Below the pieces are notes generated by a model, which saw only the letters and a program-made list of their open reading frames with translations, was not told where the DNA came from and ran no database searches. A program made the translations under genes and the position numbers. Source: an uncultured Agathobacter sp. (GTDB taxonomy: Bacteria; Bacillota; Clostridia; Lachnospirales; Lachnospiraceae). From it: a stretch of DNA of 64,000 nt. Of the stretch, positions 6,847-63,202 are shown in pieces. The stretch is from contig CALWLL010000052.1 in NCBI GenBank assembly GCA_944381555.1, positions 48,166-112,165 of the forward strand, read 5' to 3'. The stretch's first letter is position 1. Each line of letters opens with the position of its first letter.

Positions 6847-7695
6847 TCAAATAGCAATTGGAATATTTTTAATCTGTTCCCCTGTCACATAATCTATCAG
6901 CTTAATATCATCTGTCGTAAACTGATAAAAATCCTTAATCATGGGATTCATCCAGAATTTTGGCGCCGGATACTGTTCTCTTTGAATGAGTTCTTTTACG
7001 ATTGGAATATGCCGGTCGTAAATATGCGCATCTGCAATCACATGCACCAGTTCCCCTACCTGCATACCGCACACCTGTGCAAGCATATGAACCAAAACGG
7101 CATACTGACACACATTCCAGTTGTTAGCCGCAAGCACATCCTGCGAACGCTGGTTTAAGATTGCATTCAATACTAATTTATCTTCACCCGGTCTTTGCGT
7201 TACGTTAAATGTCATGCTATACGCGCATGGATACAGATGCATTTCATGTAAATCCTGATGTACATAAATATTGGTCATAATACGACGGCTGAACGGATTA
7301 TTCTTTAAGTCATAGATGACTCTGTCCACCTGATCCATCATACCTTCTTTGTACTGGTGTTTTACTCCCATCTGATACCCATAAGCCTTACCGATAGAAC
7401 CTGTTTCATCAGCCCATTCATCCCAGATATGACCTTTTAAATCATGGATATTGTTGGATTTTCTCTGCCAGATCCAAAGCAGCTCATCCACACAGGTCTT
7501 AATGGCAGTCTTGCGAAGCGTAAGCGCCGGAAATTCCTTCGACAAATCATAGCGGTTTACTACCCCGAATTTTTTGATGGTATACGCGCTTGTTCCGTCT
7601 TCCCAGACTGGACGAACCTTTTCCCCCTCTGTACTGGTTCCGTTCTCTATAATGTCTTTACACATCTCTACAAATACTTTATCCGCGTAGCTCAT
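6847..7695 (-). CDS. thyA: Thymidylate synthase
   Basis: It makes dTMP from dUMP with methylene-tetrahydrofolate as one-carbon donor and reductant. The start at 7695 (282 aa) follows AAGGAGAAGAAC; an upstream ATG at 7728 has no site. The catalytic Cys is in LYPCAYSMTFNVT. The residue after Cys is Ala rather than the His of E. coli ThyA, and the later block reads AANNWNVCQYAVL. From memory this suits the divergent phage phi3T/B. subtilis ThyA-like branch. It is the first gene of the operon, served by a near-consensus promoter at 7766-7794. Confidence 0.93.
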   Translation of the reverse strand: MSYADKVFVEMCKDIIENGTSTEGEKVRPVWEDGTSAYTIKKFGVVNRYDLSKEFPALTLRKTAIKTCVDELLWIWQRKSNNIHDLKGHIWDEWADETGSIGKAYGYQMGVKHQYKEGMMDQVDRVIYDLKNNPFSRRIMTNIYVHQDLHEMHLYPCAYSMTFNVTQRPGEDKLVLNAILNQRSQDVLAANNWNVCQYAVLVHMLAQVCGMQVGELVHVIADAHIYDRHIPIVKELIQREQYPAPKFWMNPMIKDFYQFTTDDIKLIDYVTGEQIKNIPIAI

Positions 7696-51666: not shown

Positions 51667-52866
51667 TTAAGCACTTACAACACGCTTCATTTCACTCTGT
51701 GCATCCTCAAAACTAATGTGCGTATATGTATTTAAGGTAACACTAATATCTGAATGTCCCATAATATACTGTAAAGTCTTTGGATTCATGCCCGATTTCG
51801 CCATCTTTGAACAAAATGTATGTCTACATACATGTGGCGTAATCTTTGGCATCTGCACTCTATAAATACTATTGTACTTTTCTCGAATGTGCTGCATATA
51901 CTTTTCCCAATGCAACGCTACCATCGGCTTATCATTCTTATCCAAACACAAGAAGCCTGTATACCCATCTATCATTAGCTCGATATCCGGCTTTGGACGA
52001 TTTTGAATAATAGTACGAAAACATTCACTTACCTCTTTTGTCATCGGAACATATCTAACGCCACTTTCCGTTTTTGTGTCTTCAATAACATATTCCATTT
52101 TGCGAGTTCTTTGTAATTGATGGTCAACTTTAATCTTCATATTCTTAAAGTCAATGTCTTTCATCGTAAGACCGCAAAATTCTGAGATACGAAGTCCCGT
52201 ATTGAACAATATATAAATTGCCTCATAGTACTTGCAGAAATGTGCATCTTCTTTTACAAATTTTAGATATTCTCTTTCTTGCTTCCTCGTGATTGCTTCT
52301 CTTGTTACACTATCGTTTACAACCACTGTTGCAAGCTCAAATGCAAATGGATTCTTACGAATCAAATCATCATCAACTGCCATTTGAAATGCAGGTCTTA
52401 CCACTCCTCTAATGGAATGAATTGAACTATATCCTCTTCCATCCACCTTTTGTAGTTTAATCAGCCATGCCTTTGCATCCGATAATTTCACCTTATCAAT
52501 TCGCTTTTTACCAAATGACTCTTTCTTAATAATGTTAATGACAAATCTATAGTTTGCCTCTGTATTATGTCGGACTCCAGTCTTTAGCGAAACGTATTTT
52601 TCCACCAATTCCAGAACTGTAAAATTTCCACCATTGGAGACAATATTATCAAACAAATCCAACTCAATCTGCTTCTCCTTCTCCCTAAGGGACAAATCTC
52701 TTTTCTTCCCTTTGGGCGTAGGGTCATTTCTATCCAATCTCCAACTATAGACATATCGCTCATTGCCACTATTATCAAGATACTTAAACTGGTATCTTCC
52801 ATCTGCTCTCTGGGTCTCTCCGCCATGAAGAATTCTATTTTTATTATCTCTTCTTTTTTCGCTCAT
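51667..52866 (-). CDS. int: Tyrosine recombinase, Tn916-type integrase
   Basis: A 399-aa site-specific recombinase. The N-terminal 75 residues are the Tn916-type arm-binding domain (RILHGGETQRADGRYQFKYLD), followed by a SAM-like core-binding domain and the catalytic domain with Arg in NTGLRISEFCGL, His/Arg in TPHVCRHTFCSK, His in GHSDISVT and Tyr in LNTYTHIS. It is paired with an excisionase gene upstream. It marks the left end of an integrated element; I cannot identify conjugation genes in the window. Confidence 0.93.
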   Translation of the reverse strand: MSEKRRDNKNRILHGGETQRADGRYQFKYLDNSGNERYVYSWRLDRNDPTPKGKKRDLSLREKEKQIELDLFDNIVSNGGNFTVLELVEKYVSLKTGVRHNTEANYRFVINIIKKESFGKKRIDKVKLSDAKAWLIKLQKVDGRGYSSIHSIRGVVRPAFQMAVDDDLIRKNPFAFELATVVVNDSVTREAITRKQEREYLKFVKEDAHFCKYYEAIYILFNTGLRISEFCGLTMKDIDFKNMKIKVDHQLQRTRKMEYVIEDTKTESGVRYVPMTKEVSECFRTIIQNRPKPDIELMIDGYTGFLCLDKNDKPMVALHWEKYMQHIREKYNSIYRVQMPKITPHVCRHTFCSKMAKSGMNPKTLQYIMGHSDISVTLNTYTHISFEDAQSEMKRVVSA

Positions 52867-52953: not shown

Positions 52954-53172
52954 TTATATAACAGATGCATCATCCAAAAAAGTTTCAAATTTCTCTTTCT
53001 TTATCAGAGCTCTGTTTCCGTTCATAACAATAAAGTCACTATCATAATGTTCCTCCACAATTCTCCTCAGTTTTCCTTCCCCGATATGGTAATACTCTGC
53101 CGCTTCTGTTATTGTCAGCAAATATCTTCTCCATATAGGAATCAACTGCATTTCTTTACCTTCATCGTTCAT
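52954..53172 (-). CDS. xis: Excisionase, Tn916-type
   Basis: A 72-aa winged-helix DNA-bending protein. The segment IPIWRRYLLTITEAAEYYHIGEGKLRRIVEE is typical of Tn916 Xis, which steers the integrase towards excision. It lies 87 bases upstream of the integrase gene and three bases downstream of the MazF-like gene. Confidence 0.9.
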   Translation of the reverse strand: MNDEGKEMQLIPIWRRYLLTITEAAEYYHIGEGKLRRIVEEHYDSDFIVMNGNRALIKKEKFETFLDDASVI

Positions 53173-53175
53173 CCA

Positions 53176-53541
53176 TTAATCCTCTATATCCAATTGTCGA
53201 GTGATTGCATTATTTAATCTATGCATTGCCTCACTCTCTTTCTCAACGTGTCCCACCTTACAAAGCACCTGTTTTTTATCTATCGTACGGATTTGTTCCG
53301 CAAGGAAAATAGTTGGCTTTCCTAAATATCCACTTATATCTCTTGGCATTAGTTTCTGATGAACTGGAAGATCATCCTCGTTTTGCTTTGTTGTACCCGG
53401 AAGCACATTATAAGTATTCGATGATTGATTTGCCTTATCTGTACTAATAACTACACATGGTCTACGCCCTGACTGCAAATGTACCCCTGGATGTTCACCT
53501 AAATCTGCCCATATAACATCACCACGAACAATCTTATCCAT
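53176..53541 (-). CDS. MazF/PemK-type endoribonuclease toxin
   Basis: A 121-aa protein of the MazF/PemK fold: N-terminal RGDVIWADLGEHPGVHLQSGRRPCVVIS, then a central NTYNVLPGTTK and the C-terminal CKVGHVE. MazF toxins cut mRNA. No MazE-like antitoxin is adjacent. Its start overlaps, by eight bases, the stop of a resolvase-like gene, and a xis gene follows three bases later, so all are one unit. The resolvase-like or XRE neighbour may take the antitoxin role (inference). Confidence 0.85.
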   Translation of the reverse strand: MDKIVRGDVIWADLGEHPGVHLQSGRRPCVVISTDKANQSSNTYNVLPGTTKQNEDDLPVHQKLMPRDISGYLGKPTIFLAEQIRTIDKKQVLCKVGHVEKESEAMHRLNNAITRQLDIED

Positions 53542-53965
53542 AACTTACTTCCTCCGCACTTGTATTAATCGTCTGTTGATACAGATTTAAACCAAGTTCC
53601 CCTTCATCGACAGAAAACACTCTATATCCATGTTCCTTTACAATGCCAACTCTCATATATGCATCTGCAATTCCATAAGATATAGCTTCCATATTTGCAA
53701 CAAGTATTGCTTCAGCAACACCTTTTTCCAATAATTTAATAGCATTTCCAAGGAGCGCTCTTTTTCCACTTGCACCTAACATTCCCTTGCGAAGTATTTT
53801 CATTGGAATTAGGTTGTTCGCTTTTGCATACTCCTCGATATATCTAAGCTGCTTATTCTCCTTTTTCTCAACATAATCAATTCTCTCCTGCGGTTCTACA
53901 GACAAAAGGATAATACATCGAACTGGATATTTTGATACTTTCTTCTTTTTTCTATTTCTTCTCAT
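53534..53965 (-). CDS. Serine-recombinase N-terminal-like small protein lacking the catalytic Ser
   Basis: A 143-aa protein starting at 53965, one base after the stop of the XRE gene. KQLRYIEEYAKANNL...GKRALLGNAIKLLEKGVAEAILVANMEAISYG...VGIVKEHGYRVFSV follows the layout of a resolvase catalytic domain. The early YxRvSt motif with the nucleophile Ser is replaced by VRCIILLSV, and the DRLSR loop reads NMEAISYG. No DNA-binding domain follows. It probably lacks recombinase activity and could be a regulatory or structural partner of the overlapping MazF-like gene. Confidence 0.65.
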   Translation of the reverse strand: MRRNRKKKKVSKYPVRCIILLSVEPQERIDYVEKKENKQLRYIEEYAKANNLIPMKILRKGMLGASGKRALLGNAIKLLEKGVAEAILVANMEAISYGIADAYMRVGIVKEHGYRVFSVDEGELGLNLYQQTINTSAEEVSYG

Positions 53966-53966
53966 C

Positions 53967-54341
53967 TTATCTAACCATACTTTCTTTTCTTGCAGAAAAA
54001 CCATCTAACATTAATTTACAAGAATTAAGAAACTGCTCTCGTTGTTTAGGCTCAAGTCCATCTATCTTATCTTGAATCCCCGAAAACAGCTTCGCATTTC
54101 TTTCTTCCTCTGTTTCCCTAATGCCTAAAACCGTATTCGCATCCACCTGAAATAATGTCATTATGCGAAAGAGCAAATCCACACTCATTTTATGACGTCC
54201 TTGCTCAATTTGAGAGCAATGCGTAAAACTTATATCTAATTTCTCTGCTAGTTCCATTTGTGTCATATGATGTGCTTTTCTTAACTCACGAATGGAGTCG
54301 CCAATTATCATATTGTTATATTCCATATGCACTGTTACCAT
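53967..54341 (-). CDS. XRE-family transcriptional regulator
   Basis: A 124-aa protein with a Cro/CI helix-turn-helix at about residues 14-68 (SIRELRKAHHMTQMELAEKLDISFTHCSQIEQGR). A short helical tail follows. Its ATG overlaps the stop of the upstream gene (ATGGTAA), so it is translationally coupled. It likely controls this small operon. Confidence 0.85.
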   Translation of the reverse strand: MVTVHMEYNNMIIGDSIRELRKAHHMTQMELAEKLDISFTHCSQIEQGRHKMSVDLLFRIMTLFQVDANTVLGIRETEEERNAKLFSGIQDKIDGLEPKQREQFLNSCKLMLDGFSARKESMVR

Positions 54342-54745
54342 TTTCTGAAGAACTCAAAAAAGAGCATCTCTGTCACATTTACATATCTTCTATACTGCAT
54401 AGAGGAAAGTTCAAACACTTTTACCCCTGCATATGCAGCATCATCCAAGAATGTCTCTAAATCATAAATATCCGTTGTAATATCTGTTAGCTTATCGACT
54501 ACCACAACCTTATATCCACGTCTTAAAACCAATGAAATCAATGCATTGATAGCAGGTCTATCAATATCCCTATTCGGTCCTTTGCTAACCACAATATCAT
54601 TTCCTACATTGATACCACGAAAGACGCACTTCTCTCTTACTTTTTCCACCTTTTTGCTAATATTACGCCCTGATTTATTCGAGTTCATGAACATAATTGC
54701 AGATGGCATATTTTCTCTAAATAACAAACTTTCTAAATAACACAT
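54335..54745 (-). CDS. Second resolvase-like small protein, probably non-catalytic
   Basis: A 136-aa protein. The stretch GPNRDIDRPAINALISLVLRRGYKVVVVDKLTDITTDIYDLETFLDDAAYAGVKVFELSS resembles a serine-recombinase fold, where RPAINALISL matches the RPxLxxML block and VVVDKLTDITTD the DRLsR loop. The catalytic Ser region is not recognisable. It is the first gene of the five-gene minus-strand unit that runs to xis. It and the 53534-53965 protein flank the XRE gene, which looks like an old duplication. Confidence 0.55.
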   Translation of the reverse strand: MCYLESLLFRENMPSAIMFMNSNKSGRNISKKVEKVREKCVFRGINVGNDIVVSKGPNRDIDRPAINALISLVLRRGYKVVVVDKLTDITTDIYDLETFLDDAAYAGVKVFELSSMQYRRYVNVTEMLFFEFFRKW

Positions 54746-54872: not shown

Positions 54873-54920
54873 TTTGGTAACTCTCATGAAACTGAATGAT
54901 AATCGGATATTATCTATTAC
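54873..54920 (+). promoter_or_regulatory. Proposed promoter of the ATP-grasp gene with upstream TTTGGTAACT motif
   Basis: CTGAAT at 54892-54897, 17-base spacer, TATTAC at 54915-54920 form a weak promoter. TTTGGTAACT at 54873-54882 ends ten bases before the -35, the same placing as at 57582-57591 before the peptide gene. Between 54746 and 54940 there is no gene. Confidence 0.4.
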
Positions 54921-54940
54921 TAATGAAGTGGGGGATATAT

Positions 54941-55948
54941 ATGTTTGAAAAAAATAAGGAAATGATTTTAGAACTTATTTCTCTTTGTCAAGAACATCAA
55001 GAAAATACACATGTTATCACTGTATTTGATGACCCATACAATACAGAAGCCTTATCAGGTATGATTTTTCCGAAAGAAATTTCAGATGTAGAAGCTGGTT
55101 TTTCATATGCATCTACATATTATACCGGCTATAATGCTTTTTGGAAATTTAAAAAAGATGTAGAAGACGGTAAATTTTCAAATCCAAATATGAAATATTT
55201 AGTTTATAGTACATCACAATTGGGAACCGACGTTGATAGACGATCACATGTTCCGATTTTATGCAAAGAAAATAGATTAACATTATTAACTTGTGATGCC
55301 TATCGGTTAGGATTACTTATGGACAAATCTCATTATTTTTCCCTACTAAAAGACTTTTCCCATATTCCACATACGATAACATATTATGGACAGAAGAACT
55401 TTAAGAATACAATAAAATCTCCATATATAATTCTGAAACCGGCATTAGAATGTGCTGCTGTTGGGGTTACTAAGGTTAAAAATGGTAATATATTGCCACT
55501 TTTAAAAGATATGCAAGATAAGTTCAATCAAAAAATATTGGCACAAGAATATATTGAAGGATATGAAGTTTCTGTTCCGGTTCTTGAAAGAGACGGACAC
55601 TACATTTCGACACCCCCTGTTTGGGTTAAGTTTGAAGGGGATATTTTAGATTACAACAAAGTGGACAATGTTCAATATTCATTTTCGGTTATTCCAAATG
55701 AAGAATTTCCATATAATGATGTAATTCCAAGTATCTGCAAACATGCAGAACAGATAATGCAGTTCATAGGTGCAAAAGGTCTTTCTCGAGTCGACTATAG
55801 AATTAGAAACGAAAAAGACTTCTACGTTTTTGATATTGCTGCATTACCCGTTCTTGCTGATACAGGAACATGTGCCCATTCGTTTAAAGCGCTATTGGGC
55901 AATAGTGAAAGCATGTATGAAGCTATTATTGGCTCATGCCTTTGCTAA
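54941..55948 (+). CDS. ATP-grasp family protein
   Basis: A 335-aa cytoplasmic protein starting at 54941 after GGGGGA. The ATP-grasp pattern is visible: IILKPALECAAVGVTKVKN (nucleotide-binding loop), LAQEYIEGYEVSVPVL, and LSRVDYRIRNEKDFYVFDIAALPVL. It resembles D-Ala-D-Ala ligase relatives, which join a carboxylate to an amine. Odd: the last metal-binding motif, usually E-x-N, reads D-I-A. It may couple an amino acid or peptide; the substrate is unknown. Its 3' end overlaps that of the RRNPP-like receptor gene by four bases. Confidence 0.8.
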   Translation: MFEKNKEMILELISLCQEHQENTHVITVFDDPYNTEALSGMIFPKEISDVEAGFSYASTYYTGYNAFWKFKKDVEDGKFSNPNMKYLVYSTSQLGTDVDRRSHVPILCKENRLTLLTCDAYRLGLLMDKSHYFSLLKDFSHIPHTITYYGQKNFKNTIKSPYIILKPALECAAVGVTKVKNGNILPLLKDMQDKFNQKILAQEYIEGYEVSVPVLERDGHYISTPPVWVKFEGDILDYNKVDNVQYSFSVIPNEEFPYNDVIPSICKHAEQIMQFIGAKGLSRVDYRIRNEKDFYVFDIAALPVLADTGTCAHSFKALLGNSESMYEAIIGSCLC

Positions 55949-57318
55949 TCTGCCCAATAATTGATATCCGAAAAAAGAAGGGGTCTATAATAATTATCAG
56001 AACAATACCCTGTAGACAATGTTTGCTGTACACTTAGTGGTACTAAAACATTGTCTATCTTTTTATTATGAGAATACATATTTGTAATAATTTTAGAACG
56101 TTTTTTTATGAATGCCGGTGAAAATGTTGGTACAAGTTTTTGGTCAATTAAATCTTTACAATATTTCTCCAATTCTAAAGCTTTTTCTACGTCGCCCATC
56201 AGATATTTTATCATCCCTAGGTTTGTAGATAATAAGTACTCATTATAATAATTCCAATCAGCTTTCTTTTCAGCTAACGTTTTTTCAAGAAGATTATTCG
56301 CATCTTCATAATTACCTATTGTAGCAAGCAGAATTGCATAATTCGAATTACAAATTGCGGTCTCATGCATTTTTAATCTTACTTCAGGGCAATTCCATAT
56401 TTTTTCAGTATATTCTTGAAATAAGTCTCGCGGAGAACTTGAGTTTTTTCCATATAATCTAGAAAAAATATGCATTTGATAAATTATTCCCCAATACTGG
56501 AACCACTTCTTCTTTTCTATAAATTGAATAGCATTTTGTAGAATATTTGTGCTTATTCCAAATTGATCACGCCACATATAATCACCAGCTAAATTACAAG
56601 CTGCTTTTAAATATTTGACAGGATGGCTCTCTTTCTTGCTATCGAGTATTTGATATCCTTTTTCCAATATATGAAGTTTATCTAACAAATCAGCTACTAT
56701 GTTAGCCTTCATCAAAAAGGATGCATAACGAATTTGCCATTTTTCGCGAGTCCTTAGATCACTCTCTCTAATATATAATTGATAATTATTAGAGATTTCA
56801 AAATATTCGTTATATATCTCTTTTTGCACTTTTCTAGATTGCGTAGATAAATATGTTTTTAATAGTAATTTCTGCTCTTTTAATCTTTGTATTAATTCAC
56901 TATTAACAGTCGTACATTTTATTATTTCAATTGAGTATTCTAACAATCTTTGATGATTGCTTATTACCTCTTCATCCATATTAGGCAAGCGACCTATACA
57001 CATTCCTCTAACATATAACATCTCAAATATAAATTCTGGAATATATACTGAAAAAAAGACAGTATCCTTTTCAATAAAATGATTTTGAAACATAAAACCA
57101 TTTACTAATTCATAGCATTTTTCATAATCATTTGTATTGTAAAATCGATATGCTTTACTCAAAACTATATATAATTCTCTATAAGATGAATCAAGCAAAG
57201 ATCTGTTAAATGATTCATATTCTTCATTTGAACACATTGCCTCACCTCGTGCTATTGAGCAATATGCTAAAATTGCATTTGCATATGCATTTTCTATATT
57301 TTCTGCTTTATTGTACAA
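55945..57318 (-). pseudogene. Helical-repeat (TPR-like) part of a split RRNPP-type regulator
   Basis: About 457 residues of alpha-helical repeats (AYRFYNTNDYEKCYELVNGF; ILLATIGNYEDANNLLEKTLAEK; STNLGMIKYLMGDVEKALELEKYCKDLI), the pattern of the TPR peptide-binding domain of PlcR/Rgg-type regulators. As it stands the frame has only a TTG start at 57318, without a ribosome site. Its frame remains open upstream through WLYNKAEN and joins the HTH gene if one T is added near 57336. The two halves are therefore one gene, about 540 aa, carrying a one-base deletion. If real, the receptor is broken, or remade as two chains. Confidence 0.75.
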
Positions 57319-57326
57319 CCAATATT

Positions 57327-57566
57327 TTAAAACATATGCGTTTCAATATCGTGGTGTTGTAACATTATGGCATAACTATCATATAGGTTCACACCGAGTT
57401 TTGCAGAAAGAGCATTGATAATAAAAAGTGTTGGTATATTTTGATGCGTTTCTAGTTGGCTAATATATTTTCTAGAACATATTCCTTCTGCAAGTTCATC
57501 TTGGGAAAGTCCTTTTTCCATTCGATAATGTTTTATTATGTCGCCAATCTTAATAAATAAATCCAT
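57327..57566 (-). CDS. XRE-type HTH domain, N-terminal part of the split RRNPP-type regulator
   Basis: 79 residues with a clean Cro/CI helix-turn-helix (IIKHYRMEKGLSQDELAEGICSRKYISQLETHQNIPTLFIINALSAKLGVNLYD). This is the usual N-terminal layout of PlcR/Rgg/ComR-type regulators, where the helical-repeat domain follows. It ends early at TAA after ETHMF; the next 15 bases in another frame lead into the repeat domain. GGAG precedes the ATG at 57566. It is divergent from a small peptide gene at 57662, as in known RRNPP pairs. Confidence 0.8.
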   Translation of the reverse strand: MDLFIKIGDIIKHYRMEKGLSQDELAEGICSRKYISQLETHQNIPTLFIINALSAKLGVNLYDSYAIMLQHHDIETHMF

Positions 57567-57581
57567 ATATTTTGTCTCCGT

Positions 57582-57630
57582 TTTGGTAACTATAGTTCTC
57601 TTTACTGTGCGAAGAAAGTGAACATATAAT
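57582..57630 (+). promoter_or_regulatory. Promoter of the peptide gene with upstream motif and palindrome
   Basis: TTTACT at 57601-57606, 18-base spacer, TATAAT at 57625-57630. TTTGGTAACT (57582-57591) runs into the palindrome AACTATAGTT (57588-57597), ending just before the -35. The spot also lies about 20 bases upstream of the regulator start on the other strand, so one bound protein could control both. Confidence 0.5.
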
Positions 57631-57661
57631 TATTATAACAAATGAAGGAGGCTTACGAAAG

Positions 57662-57805
57662 ATGAAAAAAGCAAAAGAATTACTAGCCATAATGATGGTG
57701 TGCATTATTTTGTGTGGTGTAAATACCGGAATTGAAACATGTGGTCAAGATGGAAAAGACATTATGGGCGTACTAAATTATTCTAAAACTGTTACTGAGT
57801 ATTAA
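57662..57805 (+). CDS. Small secreted peptide precursor, candidate pheromone
   Basis: A 47-aa frame with a strong ribosome site (GAAGGAGG). It has a basic start (MKKAKE), a hydrophobic core (LLAIMMVCIILCGV) and a polar tail ending in GVLNYSKTVTEY. That is the build of RRNPP-type signalling peptides (PapR, Phr, NprX), which are exported, trimmed and re-imported to bind the regulator. It is divergent from the HTH/TPR gene pair. The mature signal would be a C-terminal fragment; which one cannot be told. Confidence 0.65.
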   Translation: MKKAKELLAIMMVCIILCGVNTGIETCGQDGKDIMGVLNYSKTVTEY

Positions 57806-57961
57806 GTCTTTATTGAAATAAATTTATTTGATAAAGCAAGTTTTCAAAATCAGATTTATATAAAGGAGGATGTTAATCTGAAGAACAAATGAAATATTGT
57901 TACTTTTTTGCATTTAGAAAAGTAATTATAAAATGATTATAGAAAGACGAGGAAAAAGATT

Positions 57962-59071
57962 ATGAAGAGAATTTTTTATGTTATACTTACAGCCATTATG
58001 TTGATCACGAGCTTACCAACTCGTATCATGGCCGCACCTAAAGATGATGCAATATTATCAAATTATAATATTGTTTATTATGATGATATGTCTTTAATGA
58101 AAAGCAGATCTTCAAATTCTACCATAATTGTTCTAAATGAAGAGCAGCTAATTAAGTTAGGTGAAGAAGTTGCAGATTTGTTTAGTAGTGCTGATATGAT
58201 TTATATTGTAACAGATAAGGACAGTAATTATATACAAGAGTTATGTGATATGCCAGCATTGATGAAATATGAAGCAGCGAGCGATTCCAAATTTGCAACA
58301 GCTATTACCAAAGATGAAAATGGGTATTATGTATATTGTGATGTTTCAGCAATCTATGAGAAAGACGGCAAAACCGCACGATCAGCAAATAGTTCGTTTG
58401 TTCTTTCTGAAACGCAAAAGGTTAACGACGGATTGGTCGCTGTATTGAGAAATTCTAAAGAACCCTCCAACTCAGGTTCAAAATCTGCGAGGTTACAAAG
58501 CGCAGGTTTTGATGCATATGGAAAAGATAGTGCTGTTGTATATAAATCTTCCGGAAAACGTATTGGTACTATGGGATATACTATGTATACCTACAAAATT
58601 ATGAAATCTGGAGACATGAGAATTTTTGATGTAATTACTGTAGCAACTTTTGCTCCAGATGCAGGATATTGTTGTGGAAAGATGAGTGTATACTTAGGAA
58701 CTTCTCAAGAAAGTCATGAAGTATTAGAAGCCGCTAATATTGTATCAAGTGGTTCTTCAACAACTCACAGTTTATCATTAAGTGCAGCAAAGGCAGGTAT
58801 TTCTGGAGGTGGTTCAACCAGTTGGTCATACACAGTTGATGCACAAACAGTTACAAAATCGTTTGATATGACAACCAACGATCGCACATGGACATTTAAA
58901 CCAAAAAATCCTGGAGCAGGAGATGCATGGATTGAAGAACCTGGCGTACGTATATGTGCAACCCAAGAAAAAATATTTACAACGGTAAAACTTTCATGTC
59001 CATATACATTTTTGGGAATTGATTTATATTCAAATAATCTTGCAAAAACCTGGTACACTTATTACTATTAA
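57962..59071 (+). CDS. Secreted protein of unknown function
   Basis: A 369-aa protein with a signal peptide (MKRIFYVILTAIMLITSLPTRIMA, cleavage likely after IMA). The mature N-terminal half is mixed helix and strand. The C-terminal half (from about residue 205) is rich in Ser, Thr, Gly and aromatic residues in alternating pattern (TSWSYTVDAQTVTKSFDMTT), suggesting a beta sandwich or barrel, and ends in TWYTYYY. No family is recognised. Paired Cys (CCGK) may form disulfides. GAGGAAAAA precedes the ATG. It follows the peptide gene and precedes a hydrophobic-peptide gene, so it may be the output of the peptide-sensing system. Confidence 0.75.
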   Translation: MKRIFYVILTAIMLITSLPTRIMAAPKDDAILSNYNIVYYDDMSLMKSRSSNSTIIVLNEEQLIKLGEEVADLFSSADMIYIVTDKDSNYIQELCDMPALMKYEAASDSKFATAITKDENGYYVYCDVSAIYEKDGKTARSANSSFVLSETQKVNDGLVAVLRNSKEPSNSGSKSARLQSAGFDAYGKDSAVVYKSSGKRIGTMGYTMYTYKIMKSGDMRIFDVITVATFAPDAGYCCGKMSVYLGTSQESHEVLEAANIVSSGSSTTHSLSLSAAKAGISGGGSTSWSYTVDAQTVTKSFDMTTNDRTWTFKPKNPGAGDAWIEEPGVRICATQEKIFTTVKLSCPYTFLGIDLYSNNLAKTWYTYYY

Positions 59072-59094
59072 AATTGTTATTATGGAGGTGGAAT

Positions 59095-59235
59095 ATGTTT
59101 GCAGATAAAGATTTATTAGGAAAAGTATTAATAGCAATAGCAATAGTAATTGGTGCTTTAATAATTCGCGAGGCAATTATAGAGGCCGCAGGCATAATTG
59201 GTAGCCAAATTGCATCAGCAATAGCAATTCAATAG
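59095..59235 (+). CDS. 46-aa hydrophobic peptide, bacteriocin- or toxin-like
   Basis: A short frame with a good ribosome site (ATGGAGGTGG), 23 bases after the secreted-protein gene. After FADKDLLGK almost all residues are hydrophobic or small (AIAIVIGALIIREAIIEAAG...IASAIAIQ), with one charged patch (REAIIE). No leader, double-glycine or lipobox site is seen. It could be a membrane-active peptide, leaderless bacteriocin or small membrane partner of the secreted protein. Function unknown. Confidence 0.6.
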   Translation: MFADKDLLGKVLIAIAIVIGALIIREAIIEAAGIIGSQIASAIAIQ

Positions 59236-59295
59236 CATATATATTCAGCTATGGTAGATTATGGTTAGGACTATAATCTACCCCCTGAAAATGCA

Positions 59296-59352
59296 AAATC
59301 CGAACAACGTCGTCAGATGATGAAGTTGTTCGGATTTTTTTCTGAACCTTTT
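59296..59352 (+). terminator. Strong terminator ending the peptide/secreted-protein unit
   Basis: Perfect 13-bp stem AAATCCGAACAAC/GTTGTTCGGATTT (59296-59308 with 59335-59347) and a run of T. A smaller hairpin (GGTAGATTAT/ATAATCTACC) precedes it at about 59250-59280. The gap 59236-59507 holds nothing else I can see. Confidence 0.85.
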
Positions 59353-60628: not shown

Positions 60629-61414
60629 ATGTGTTGTAAAGTATGTAACAAGAACTATTCTGTAGATGAGAATGGTGTATTTTCTATGGTGTTATCATTA
60701 ACCACAGAAAAGAAAAAAATAATTGATTTATACGATTTGTTATCTGTGGAAAAGAGTAAGAATCCCTATGCGAGATTTTCTACATATTTAAATTATGGAT
60801 TATTAAGTAAAGGACAGAATTATGAAGGAAATCAAAAAGCTTCCATGAACCTGATTGAAAGCATTTGTGAAAAAATTGATTTTACCAATAAAATGGTTAT
60901 TGATGTTGGTTGTGGAAGAGGCGGTAATTTGTTTTATATAAATAGTCATTTTGAAGCGGAATATTTAGTCGGAGTGGATTTATCATATGAGAATGTTTTG
61001 TTTTGTGGTTCGAAAGGTGCACAAATAGATTTCGTGCAGGCGGACGCAGAGAATTTGCCTTTTGCAAAAAAAATATTCGACATTGTTATAAATATTGAAT
61101 CTGCGCTACATTATCCAAATATCGATAAATTTTACTGGGAGGTGGAACGAGTATTAAAAGATGGTGGAATATTTATATATGTAGATATAATAGAAAATGG
61201 AGAATATGAAAAAAGAAAAGAGTTGTTATTGAATAGTGATTTTTATTTTGTACAGGAGTGCGACTATACTAAATGTGTTTTAGAGGCGATGAAGGCAGCT
61301 GGACTTGATAGATTGGATGATATGATAACTTTGTTTAGCCATTCAAAAATGTACAAGGATTTGTGTGAAAAAAGAAAGAAATATATTTTATGGATTATGA
61401 AGAAAGGAAAATAA
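60629..61414 (+). CDS. SAM-dependent methyltransferase, probably 5'-truncated
   Basis: 261 aa from the first ATG. A class I methyltransferase: KMVIDVGCGRGGNLFYI (motif I), YLVGVDLS, FVQADAENLPFAKKIFDIVINIESALHY and LKDGGIFIYVDI. The ATG lies inside a probable zinc ribbon: CKVC follows it, but its partner KCVKC is encoded just before it in the same open frame, which stays open back to about 60560 with no ATG. The natural start is thus missing or non-standard. The substrate is unknown; small molecules or natural products are common in this family. Confidence 0.75.
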   Translation: MCCKVCNKNYSVDENGVFSMVLSLTTEKKKIIDLYDLLSVEKSKNPYARFSTYLNYGLLSKGQNYEGNQKASMNLIESICEKIDFTNKMVIDVGCGRGGNLFYINSHFEAEYLVGVDLSYENVLFCGSKGAQIDFVQADAENLPFAKKIFDIVINIESALHYPNIDKFYWEVERVLKDGGIFIYVDIIENGEYEKRKELLLNSDFYFVQECDYTKCVLEAMKAAGLDRLDDMITLFSHSKMYKDLCEKRKKYILWIMKKGK

Positions 61415-61639: not shown

Positions 61640-63202
61640 ATGAGGTGTCTTGAATCAATGATTATTACTGAAATCCTTCGCTTGAAGGAAATGAATTTTA
61701 CTCTTCGTGAAATAGCCGATGCCACCAAGTGCTCTAAAACAACAGCCGGAGAAATTCTGGCACGCTGCAAAGAATGTGGCCTTACCTATGAGGATGCAAT
61801 AAAACTTCCTTCGGAAAGAATTCACGAACTTATATATCCTGACTCTTTTGGCCGTAAGCAGGTCAAAGATGAGCCGGATTGGAATGCGATACATCAGCGT
61901 CTGCTTTCCAGCAGACGTATCAATCTGCAGTACATTTGGCAGGAGGAGTACCGTAAAGAGAATCCGGAGGGTTACAGTTATAGCCGTTTTTGTGCCAAGT
62001 ACAATGCTTGGAAAAATGAAAACGGCAAAAATGTAGTTCTTCCCCAAGAGCGTGAGCCGGGAAAAGAATTATTTATTGACTGGATAGGTGATACACTTCC
62101 GTGTGTTATTGACTACTCAACCGGCGAAATACATGATGCACATTTCTTTGTTACCACGCTGGGAGACAGTTCCTATCCGTTTGTAGAAGCATTTCCGGAT
62201 GAAACACAGTTAAACTGGAATCAAGGGCATATCGATGCCTTTGAGTGGTATGGTGGTCTTCCAAGAATCTTAGTTCCTGATAACTGTAAAACCGCGGTGC
62301 TGCACACCAGTCTGTATGAGCCACAGTTGAATCATGCTTACCGTGACCTTGCAAGGCATTATCAGGTTGCTATTATTCCGGCACGTGTCCGCAAACCAAA
62401 AGATAAAGCTTCGGTAGAATCCGGAGTGGGCTGGCTTGAGACCTGGCTCTTAGAATGGCTCAAGAATAAGATTTATTACAGCTTTGAAGCTTTAAACCAT
62501 GATATAAAGGAACGTCTTCTTGAACTGGTTGATGTGAATTTCAAGCATCGTCCGGGGTCCAGAAAGAGTAACTTCCTTGCTTTGGATAAACCGGCATTAC
62601 GTCGCCTTCCGAAGGATGGATTTGAGTCCTTTGAAACGATTCCTGTAAGCAAAGTGCAGAACAACTATCATGTTGCTTACGATGGTTTTTATTATTCTGT
62701 TCCGTACTGCTATTACAACCGGAGCGTTATCATTCATGCCTATGCTAAGAAGCTTGAAGTATACGATACCATGGGTAATAGGATTGCCTTCCACATCAGA
62801 CATTTCTCCGGGAAGCGTTATGTCACCGTAACGGAGCACATGCCGGAAAATCACAAGGCAGTCATGGAATTCCATAACTTCGATGCTTCCTATTACCGCC
62901 AGAAATCTGCACGGATTGGCGATAATGCACATAAGTTCGTTTGTGAACTTCTGACATTGGCTGATTTTGAAGAACAGGCATATAAATCCTGTATGGCTGT
63001 CATCAACTTCAGCAGAAACTATGGTTGTAATCGGGTGGACAGAGCCTGCGAAAAAGCTCTCGCTCTGAAATCCGTTAATTATACAACACTTAAAAATATC
63101 CTGAAGAATGGTCAGGATAAGCAGCCTATTAACCCTGATGTCTCTGATGCGGAAACTCCAACTCCATACCATGAAAATCTCCGTGTCGGAGAATGGATGT
63201 AA
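61640..63202 (+). CDS. istA: IS21-family transposase IstA
   Basis: A 520-aa DDE transposase. It has an N-terminal helix-turn-helix (LRLKEMNFTLREIADATKCSKTTAGEIL) and the catalytic residues Asp in FIDWIGDTLP, Asp in LVPDNCKTAV and Glu in KASVESGVGWLE. AAGGAGG precedes its ATG. The frame is intact, so the element may still be active. It is followed 14 bases later by istB. Confidence 0.96.
   Translation: MRCLESMIITEILRLKEMNFTLREIADATKCSKTTAGEILARCKECGLTYEDAIKLPSERIHELIYPDSFGRKQVKDEPDWNAIHQRLLSSRRINLQYIWQEEYRKENPEGYSYSRFCAKYNAWKNENGKNVVLPQEREPGKELFIDWIGDTLPCVIDYSTGEIHDAHFFVTTLGDSSYPFVEAFPDETQLNWNQGHIDAFEWYGGLPRILVPDNCKTAVLHTSLYEPQLNHAYRDLARHYQVAIIPARVRKPKDKASVESGVGWLETWLLEWLKNKIYYSFEALNHDIKERLLELVDVNFKHRPGSRKSNFLALDKPALRRLPKDGFESFETIPVSKVQNNYHVAYDGFYYSVPYCYYNRSVIIHAYAKKLEVYDTMGNRIAFHIRHFSGKRYVTVTEHMPENHKAVMEFHNFDASYYRQKSARIGDNAHKFVCELLTLADFEEQAYKSCMAVINFSRNYGCNRVDRACEKALALKSVNYTTLKNILKNGQDKQPINPDVSDAETPTPYHENLRVGEWM

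Follow-up and report, generated by a model that had tools for sequence, protein, structure and literature searches.

The locus described here lies in the window, by which is meant the whole 64,000-nucleotide stretch analysed, from an uncultured Agathobacter sp. The preliminary description had placed here an XRE HTH, a repeat region, a divergent short gene, genes for a 369-aa and a 46-aa product and a strong terminator, and all of them are present at those positions. These features, together with the adjoining integrase and excisionase genes, are as follows:

51667–52866, minus strand: Tn916-type integrase (Integrase_DNA 106 bits, Phage_integrase 117 bits)
52954–53172, minus strand: excisionase (Tn916-Xis 71.8 bits)
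55945–57318, minus strand: frame of helical, TPR-like repeats, 457 aa, in a frame different from that of the HTH
57327–57566, minus strand: XRE-type HTH, 79 aa, the first module of a PlcR-like receptor; the frame ends just beyond the module edge
57582–57606, plus strand: candidate operator, 25 nt, identical in the window cassette and in a second cassette on contig C62
57601–57630, plus strand: promoter-like site of the peptide gene, TTTACT-18-TATAAT
57662–57805, plus strand: candidate pheromone precursor, 47 aa, divergent from the HTH gene
57962–59071, plus strand: 369-aa protein with a signal-peptide-like start
59095–59235, plus strand: hydrophobic peptide, 46 aa, with one predicted membrane stretch, nested in a 53-aa TTG frame
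59253–59282, plus strand: perfect 13-bp hairpin with a 4-nt loop, directly before the terminator hairpin
59295–59338, plus strand: intrinsic terminator, 14-bp stem and U tract (z −8.4; 0 of 200 shuffles equally stable)

The terminator is present as a single copy in the genome and matches itself in reverse, and no other copy of the hairpin that precedes it was found in the genome. A 7-nt Shine–Dalgarno match precedes only three of the 205 ATG frames of 40–60 aa in the window, among them the 47-aa and 46-aa genes, each with a score of 7. Taken as a class, promoter-like sites do not exceed chance in the window (23 found, 21.8 expected). Rfam gave no match, and no description of this cassette was found among the titles and abstract openings listed in searches of open PMC papers.

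The Tn916-type integrase and excisionase adjoin the low-GC region of the cassette, where GC content is 0.29–0.36 (0.29–0.35 in the cassette genes), against 0.417 and 0.437 in two genes to the left. This low GC content and these neighbours make it probable that an integrative element carries the cassette as cargo. Between the excisionase and the cassette, within 53176–54745 (minus strand), are a gene for a PemK-like toxin and two fragments that match the N-terminal part of resolvases (53534–54004 and 54335–54745). A gene for an ATP-grasp protein (54896–55948, plus strand; Dala_Dala_lig_C 57.9 bits) is convergent with the repeat frame and touches its end. Beyond the terminator are genes for a methyltransferase (60629–61414, plus strand), which has a partial PADLOC mad2 match of 57.3 bits and lipid methyltransferases as its best NCBIfam matches, and for a transposase (61640–63202, plus strand; Mu-transpos_C_2 and rve matches), presumably IS21-like, close to the end of the contig, which coincides with the end of the window.

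The HTH matches Pfam HTH_3 at 41.7 bits (cut-off 23). The best PDB match of the HTH is PlcR (2qfc, 5e-7); the Pfam model RNPP_C (PF18768) has no match in the entire genome at E <= 0.001. Sites resembling the PlcR box are not above background (one site with two mismatches near the start, compared with 24 over the last 14 kb). Within the window, the two promoter regions are not significantly alike (129 of 1000 shuffles). The 457-aa repeats reach 24.9 bits with TPR_12 (E 2.4e-5), below the curated cut-off of 30.1. Their predicted model is all-helical with a mean pLDDT of 50 and has no Foldseek match at E <= 0.001; VIA-align scores for NprR (11.3), Rgg3 (11.0) and Rap (10.9) are tied with those for the unrelated TPR proteins kinesin light chain and LGN. 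A match of the repeats to a family outside RRNPP, which would have told against the original proposal, did not emerge, with no specific family of that kind reaching a curated cut-off. Among 145 relatives, the repeat frame has matches in its own genome only; ten of 348 family genomes were matched at E <= 0.01, at ten non-own places, and none of the nine that were read is an HTH-TPR protein, the tenth (L039, with five stops in frame) being left out. Plasmids, phages, and viral or genome contigs contain no match to the frame.

The HTH and repeat frames are both open across 57327–57342, over short T and A runs. A separate start of the repeat frame is possible at ATG 57237, which would give 430 aa and is preceded by a 7-nt Shine–Dalgarno match (GAGGTGA), the best among the 23 possible starts of this frame. 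Rather than the single polypeptide of about 250–500 aa that defines a receptor of this family, the window has two separate frames that are not in register, one of 79 aa and one of 457 aa.

Searching with the window HTH led to a second such cassette elsewhere in this genome, on a 6.3-kb contig (C62; L058). Its HTH is 88% identical to that of the window, and it encodes:

C62 receptor: 306 aa, unbroken and of PlcR size
C62 peptide: 44 aa, divergent from the receptor and 61% identical to the 47-aa peptide of the window
C62 secreted protein: 192 aa, different from the secreted protein of the window
C62 597-aa protein: one N-terminal hydrophobic stretch
C62 ABC-FtsX protein: 737 aa, ABC and FtsX-like permease fused

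The best PDB relative of the C62 receptor is PlcR (1.5e-5), close to it in length at 293 aa; its TPR match is sub-threshold only and RNPP_C is unmatched at E <= 1. In both the size of its receptor and the adjoining small precursor, this cassette agrees with the family criteria as given in the available portion of the source (PMC10075063). No NCBIfam match at E <= 1 and no bacteriocin model was found for the 192-aa protein, and no immunity model matched the 597-aa protein. The ABC component has TIGR03608 (L_ocin_972_ABC) as the best of 208 NCBIfam families at 194.1 bits, short of the cut-off of 254.85. By tblastn, nothing in the window corresponds to the C62 sensor, to the C62 secreted protein or to the other genes of that contig. 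The window repeats are not convincingly related to PlcR-like sensors (hhalign probability of 2.3 with E 0.02), and a BLASTP match (E 0.002) is shifted in register.

The two cassettes share one BLASTN match, 440 nt at 77.5% identity (window 57337–57775), which comprises the HTH, the divergent promoter and intergenic region, and the peptide up to MGVL. This block ends at the boundary of HTH and sensor on one side and before the last nine residues of the peptide on the other, and the frame break in the window sits exactly at its edge (57337). Differences between the loci at the three codon positions number 6, 3 and 31 in the HTH (69/77 residues identical, dN 0.059, dS 1.45, dN/dS about 0.04) and 13, 8 and 19 in the peptide (dN 0.29, dS 1.06, dN/dS about 0.27); these ratios average over both lineages and are rough because the dS values are near saturation. 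This pattern of substitution shows strong purifying selection on the HTH, and the peptide gene, too, bears a signature of selection across its codon positions. In the peptide gene, nucleotide identity is 14/27 over the last nine codons and 78/105 over the rest, and conservation is higher in the middle of the peptide (QDGKDxMGVL) than at its C-terminus. Thus at two loci of one genome the HTH, the operator and the signal are kept, while the sensor repeats, the last residues of the signal and the cargo differ. Because the window sensor is unrelated to that of its twin and, where the block ends, falls out of frame with the HTH, the window receptor is split, chimeric or broken.

Within the aligned intergenic region, no identical run is longer than the 25-nt element, a length that 3 of 20,000 column shuffles reach. 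With up to three mismatches allowed it occurs at two places in the entire genome, one in each cassette and both exact (control 0). It contains the palindrome AACTATAGTT (57588–57597) and the −35-like TTTACT, and the TTTACT-18-TATAAT site, with 10 of 12 consensus positions, aligns with the same place in C62. On this conservation the element is a candidate operator. A 19-nt match to it in one viral contig was taken as chance; the contig reads as what we presume to be an RNA-phage genome.

The 47-aa gene lies 95 bp from the HTH start and is of the size (10–100 aa) and in the adjacent position of a small precursor. Its product has a hydropathy of 2.33 over 17 residues, and the 44-aa peptide of C62 has the positively charged start and hydrophobic stretch of a signal-like sequence (score 3.3). 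The 47-aa peptide scores 15.7 bits with Phr_nterm, under the cut-off of 25 and at E-values like those at which control signal peptides match other families; the C62 peptide does not match this model. Receptor relatives were collected at E <= 1e-8 with the window HTH (155 genomes, matches in six, own included) and the C62 receptor (166 genomes, matches in nine, own included), giving 14 non-own receptors. Under a rule set after a first look (25–70 aa, Shine–Dalgarno match of at least 4, signal-like start of at least 2.0, within 400 nt), seven of the 14 have a candidate exported peptide beside them (L051, L076, L077, L078, L079, L080 and L081), against 4/73 control genes (4/25 in the same loci and 0/48 in two further stretches and the window); some of these control hits may be the same peptides met from the other side. 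Fisher's test gives p 1.4e-4 for the enrichment and 8.7e-4 when the weak L078 is left out. The peptide is divergent, as in the window, in L051, L077, L080 and L081, and convergent in L076, L078 and L079. The relatives are one-piece HTH-TPR proteins, and the last three named are double receptors, HTH-TPR-HTH-TPR in one protein of 612–654 aa (the second HTH read by eye):

L076, 3504–5417, minus strand: double receptor with a convergent candidate exported peptide
L078, 2641–4605, plus strand: double receptor with a convergent, weak candidate exported peptide
L079, 3745–5583, plus strand: double receptor with a convergent candidate exported peptide

Receptor homologues lacking an adjacent exported peptide had been named in advance as evidence against a pheromone system, and here the outcome is mixed: seven of the 14 have none, although three of those (L054, L055 and L057) have 1.5 kb of flank or less; L075 has a candidate under the threshold. 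RRNPPA receptors without a pheromone are, however, reported to be common, as stated in the available part of the source (PMC9765709).

The secreted products have few detectable relatives. The 369-aa protein has no NCBIfam match at E <= 1, only a sub-threshold Pfam match (Inhibitor_I42) and no bacteriocin model; its predicted model has a pLDDT of 34. It was found in its own genome only among 98 relatives, and not at all in plasmids, phages, or viral or genome contigs; matches in 19 of 391 class genomes (E <= 0.1; best non-own 4.6e-4) were put down to chance after re-aligning or reading. Its C-terminal module (about 213–336) has one real partial relative, a 151-aa frame in genome G671 (1.3e-11; two of 397 family genomes, own included), with no HTH-TPR gene in the 12 kb covered and, beside it, a short piece that we take to be BlaR1-like. 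A two-row profile (A1) matched four non-own genomes of 295, all of which share TSWHYTVD..., presumably an amidase-like motif; this likeness of 15 residues was likewise taken as chance. The segment encoded at 58819–58890, TSWSYTVDAQTVTKSF, resembles the amidase-like motif TSWHYTVDAENVWQSF without its histidine. Neither the A1 profile nor the G671 protein found anything in viral contigs. The C-terminus of the 369-aa protein also bears a weak likeness to the C62 192-aa protein (z 3.9, 3/500 shuffles) and to a 131-aa protein of L077 (z 3.4, 0/500 shuffles). These are two out of ten pairs tested in addition to the true pair with G671, and G671 shows neither likeness (z 0.1 and 0.7). The L077 protein (6880–7275, plus strand) is secreted and encoded about 2.2 kb past the peptide of its PlcR-like receptor locus. 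The 46-aa peptide has a best 17-residue hydropathy of 2.79 and is unmatched in plasmids and phages.

Collectively, these results suggest, with somewhat better than even confidence in the explanation as a whole, a pheromone switch of the PlcR-like type that sits on a mobile island of low GC content and drives secreted, probably antagonistic cargo. That the cassette is a pheromone cassette of the PlcR-like kind is a good deal firmer, and likely. The RRNPP receptor and peptide layout of the preliminary description stands insofar as PlcR is the best PDB relative, the C62 cassette is unbroken and peptides adjoin relatives more often than controls, but not as a single working PlcR-type receptor in the window, where the frames differ, the repeats are not detectably related to those of the twin and RNPP_C is unmatched in the genome. 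In such a switch, the short exported peptide (47 aa; 44 aa in C62) would be cut down extracellularly to its C-terminal signal, which would be re-imported to act on the cytoplasmic receptor, and the conservation of the common 25-nt element suggests that the receptor HTH binds it beside the peptide promoter. The receptor would be an activator, overlapping the −35 box, on the palindrome, which sits about 44 bases ahead of where transcription is expected to start. This place fits an activator and makes positive feedback on the peptide gene likely, together with read-through into, or co-activation of, the cargo. The cargo would be the secreted 192-aa protein and the ABC transporter in C62, and the 369-aa protein and the 46-aa peptide, membrane-active in appearance, in the window. 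Use of this cargo against neighbouring bacteria is put at slightly short of an even chance, and is favoured by analogy, from the nearness of the C62 ABC protein to lactococcin-972 exporters and from the published ComR-type regulator beside a lactococcin-972-like locus discussed below. As to the toxin or surface role that the preliminary description proposed for the outputs, the C62 ABC transporter hints at cargo of a bacteriocin-like kind.

Whether the window copy senses today is more doubtful, and we lean against it. It may be, with a probability appreciable though well below even, a decayed or recombined relic, in which the block of HTH, promoter and peptide was joined to a foreign TPR gene in another frame; the HTH-only protein might then repress or do nothing, and the cargo would no longer be under density control. 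The frame break exactly at the block edge, the lack of any trace of the C62 sensor in the window and the surrounding DNA, which is mobile and low in GC and includes two resolvase fragments and an IS21-like transposase, all agree with decay, but the repeat frame stays open for 457 codons, selection on the HTH is strong (averaged over both lineages) and the promoter, peptide and Shine–Dalgarno sites are all intact. The long open frame and the 7-nt Shine–Dalgarno match before ATG 57237 could also mean that HTH (79 aa) and sensor (430 aa) cooperate as two proteins from one transcript. This is quite improbable, since relatives are one-piece HTH-TPR proteins, no other example was found and a lone Shine–Dalgarno match within a reading frame may be chance. 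Alternatively, the frame difference may be a sequencing or assembly error that hides one chimeric receptor of about 540 aa, its sensor unrelated to that of the twin. A single-base difference within the overlap at 57327–57342, over its T and A runs, would suffice, but these runs are just four bases long and 540 aa exceeds the 285–473 aa of the validated receptors in the accessible part of PMC10075063, so that we consider an error unlikely. Under any of these readings the C62 receptor, having the same HTH, could act on the window promoter.

It is similarly unlikely that there is no pheromone at all, and that an ordinary HTH-TPR regulator controls a secreted protein while the 47-aa product, small and membrane- or lipoprotein-like, has another job. 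Half of the PlcR-like relatives have no adjacent peptide detected, and function could lie in the better conserved middle of the peptide; against this, the divergent peptide is conserved at two loci with a dN/dS of about 0.27, and exported peptides are enriched beside relatives. Returning to the pheromone switch, the window copy, lacking a receptor in one polypeptide, is not counted among RRNPP(A) members, yet probably functions as they do. A far-reaching form of the idea, in which HTH, operator and precursor move as a block in a modular quorum-sensing cassette, sensor, signal C-terminus and cargo are swapped, and the window sensor is a separate 430-aa protein, is a long shot. Two cassettes of one genome that agree in DNA-binding module and operator and differ in sensor, signal end and secreted products would show module exchange as a route by which peptide signalling diversifies, and a truly two-piece receptor in the window would change the definition of an RRNPP receptor. 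The shared HTH and operator also raise the question of crosstalk, as both HTHs should bind both promoters, and the secreted proteins, nearly without detectable relatives, would be candidates for new antagonism proteins.

Among known systems, lactococcin-972 clusters resemble the C62 cassette in the transporter, through the TIGR03608 match below cut-off, but the secreted proteins here are unmatched and ABC and FtsX-like permease are fused in 737 aa. In pneumococcus, TprA/PhrA, a PlcR-like TPR regulator with a Phr-type peptide, controls secreted peptides; cargo and peptide sequence differ here, and the Phr_nterm match is below cut-off. The scb locus of pneumococcus, according to the portion of the report available, has a ComR-type RRNPP regulator (ScbR/ScbS) beside a lactococcin-972-like locus, streptococcin B, with a Sec-secreted product and predicted immunity and transport genes, and its variants exchange signal and cargo content (PMC11796350). 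C62 resembles what is described there in its order of receptor, peptide, secreted protein, membrane-anchored protein and ABC transporter, whereas neither secreted protein here matches a bacteriocin model, no immunity model was matched by the 597-aa protein of C62 and the window copy is without a transporter. From PlcR-PapR of the Bacillus cereus group the cassettes differ in that the peptide gene is divergent and has its promoter region in common with the receptor gene, in the lack of an RNPP_C match and of a PlcR box above background, and, in the window, in a sensor that is unrelated and out of frame. They resemble it in the XRE HTH, with PlcR as best PDB match, in the size of the C62 receptor (306 aa, against 293 for PlcR) and in the exported precursor of 44–47 aa that adjoins it, and PlcR-PapR, too, has secreted outputs.
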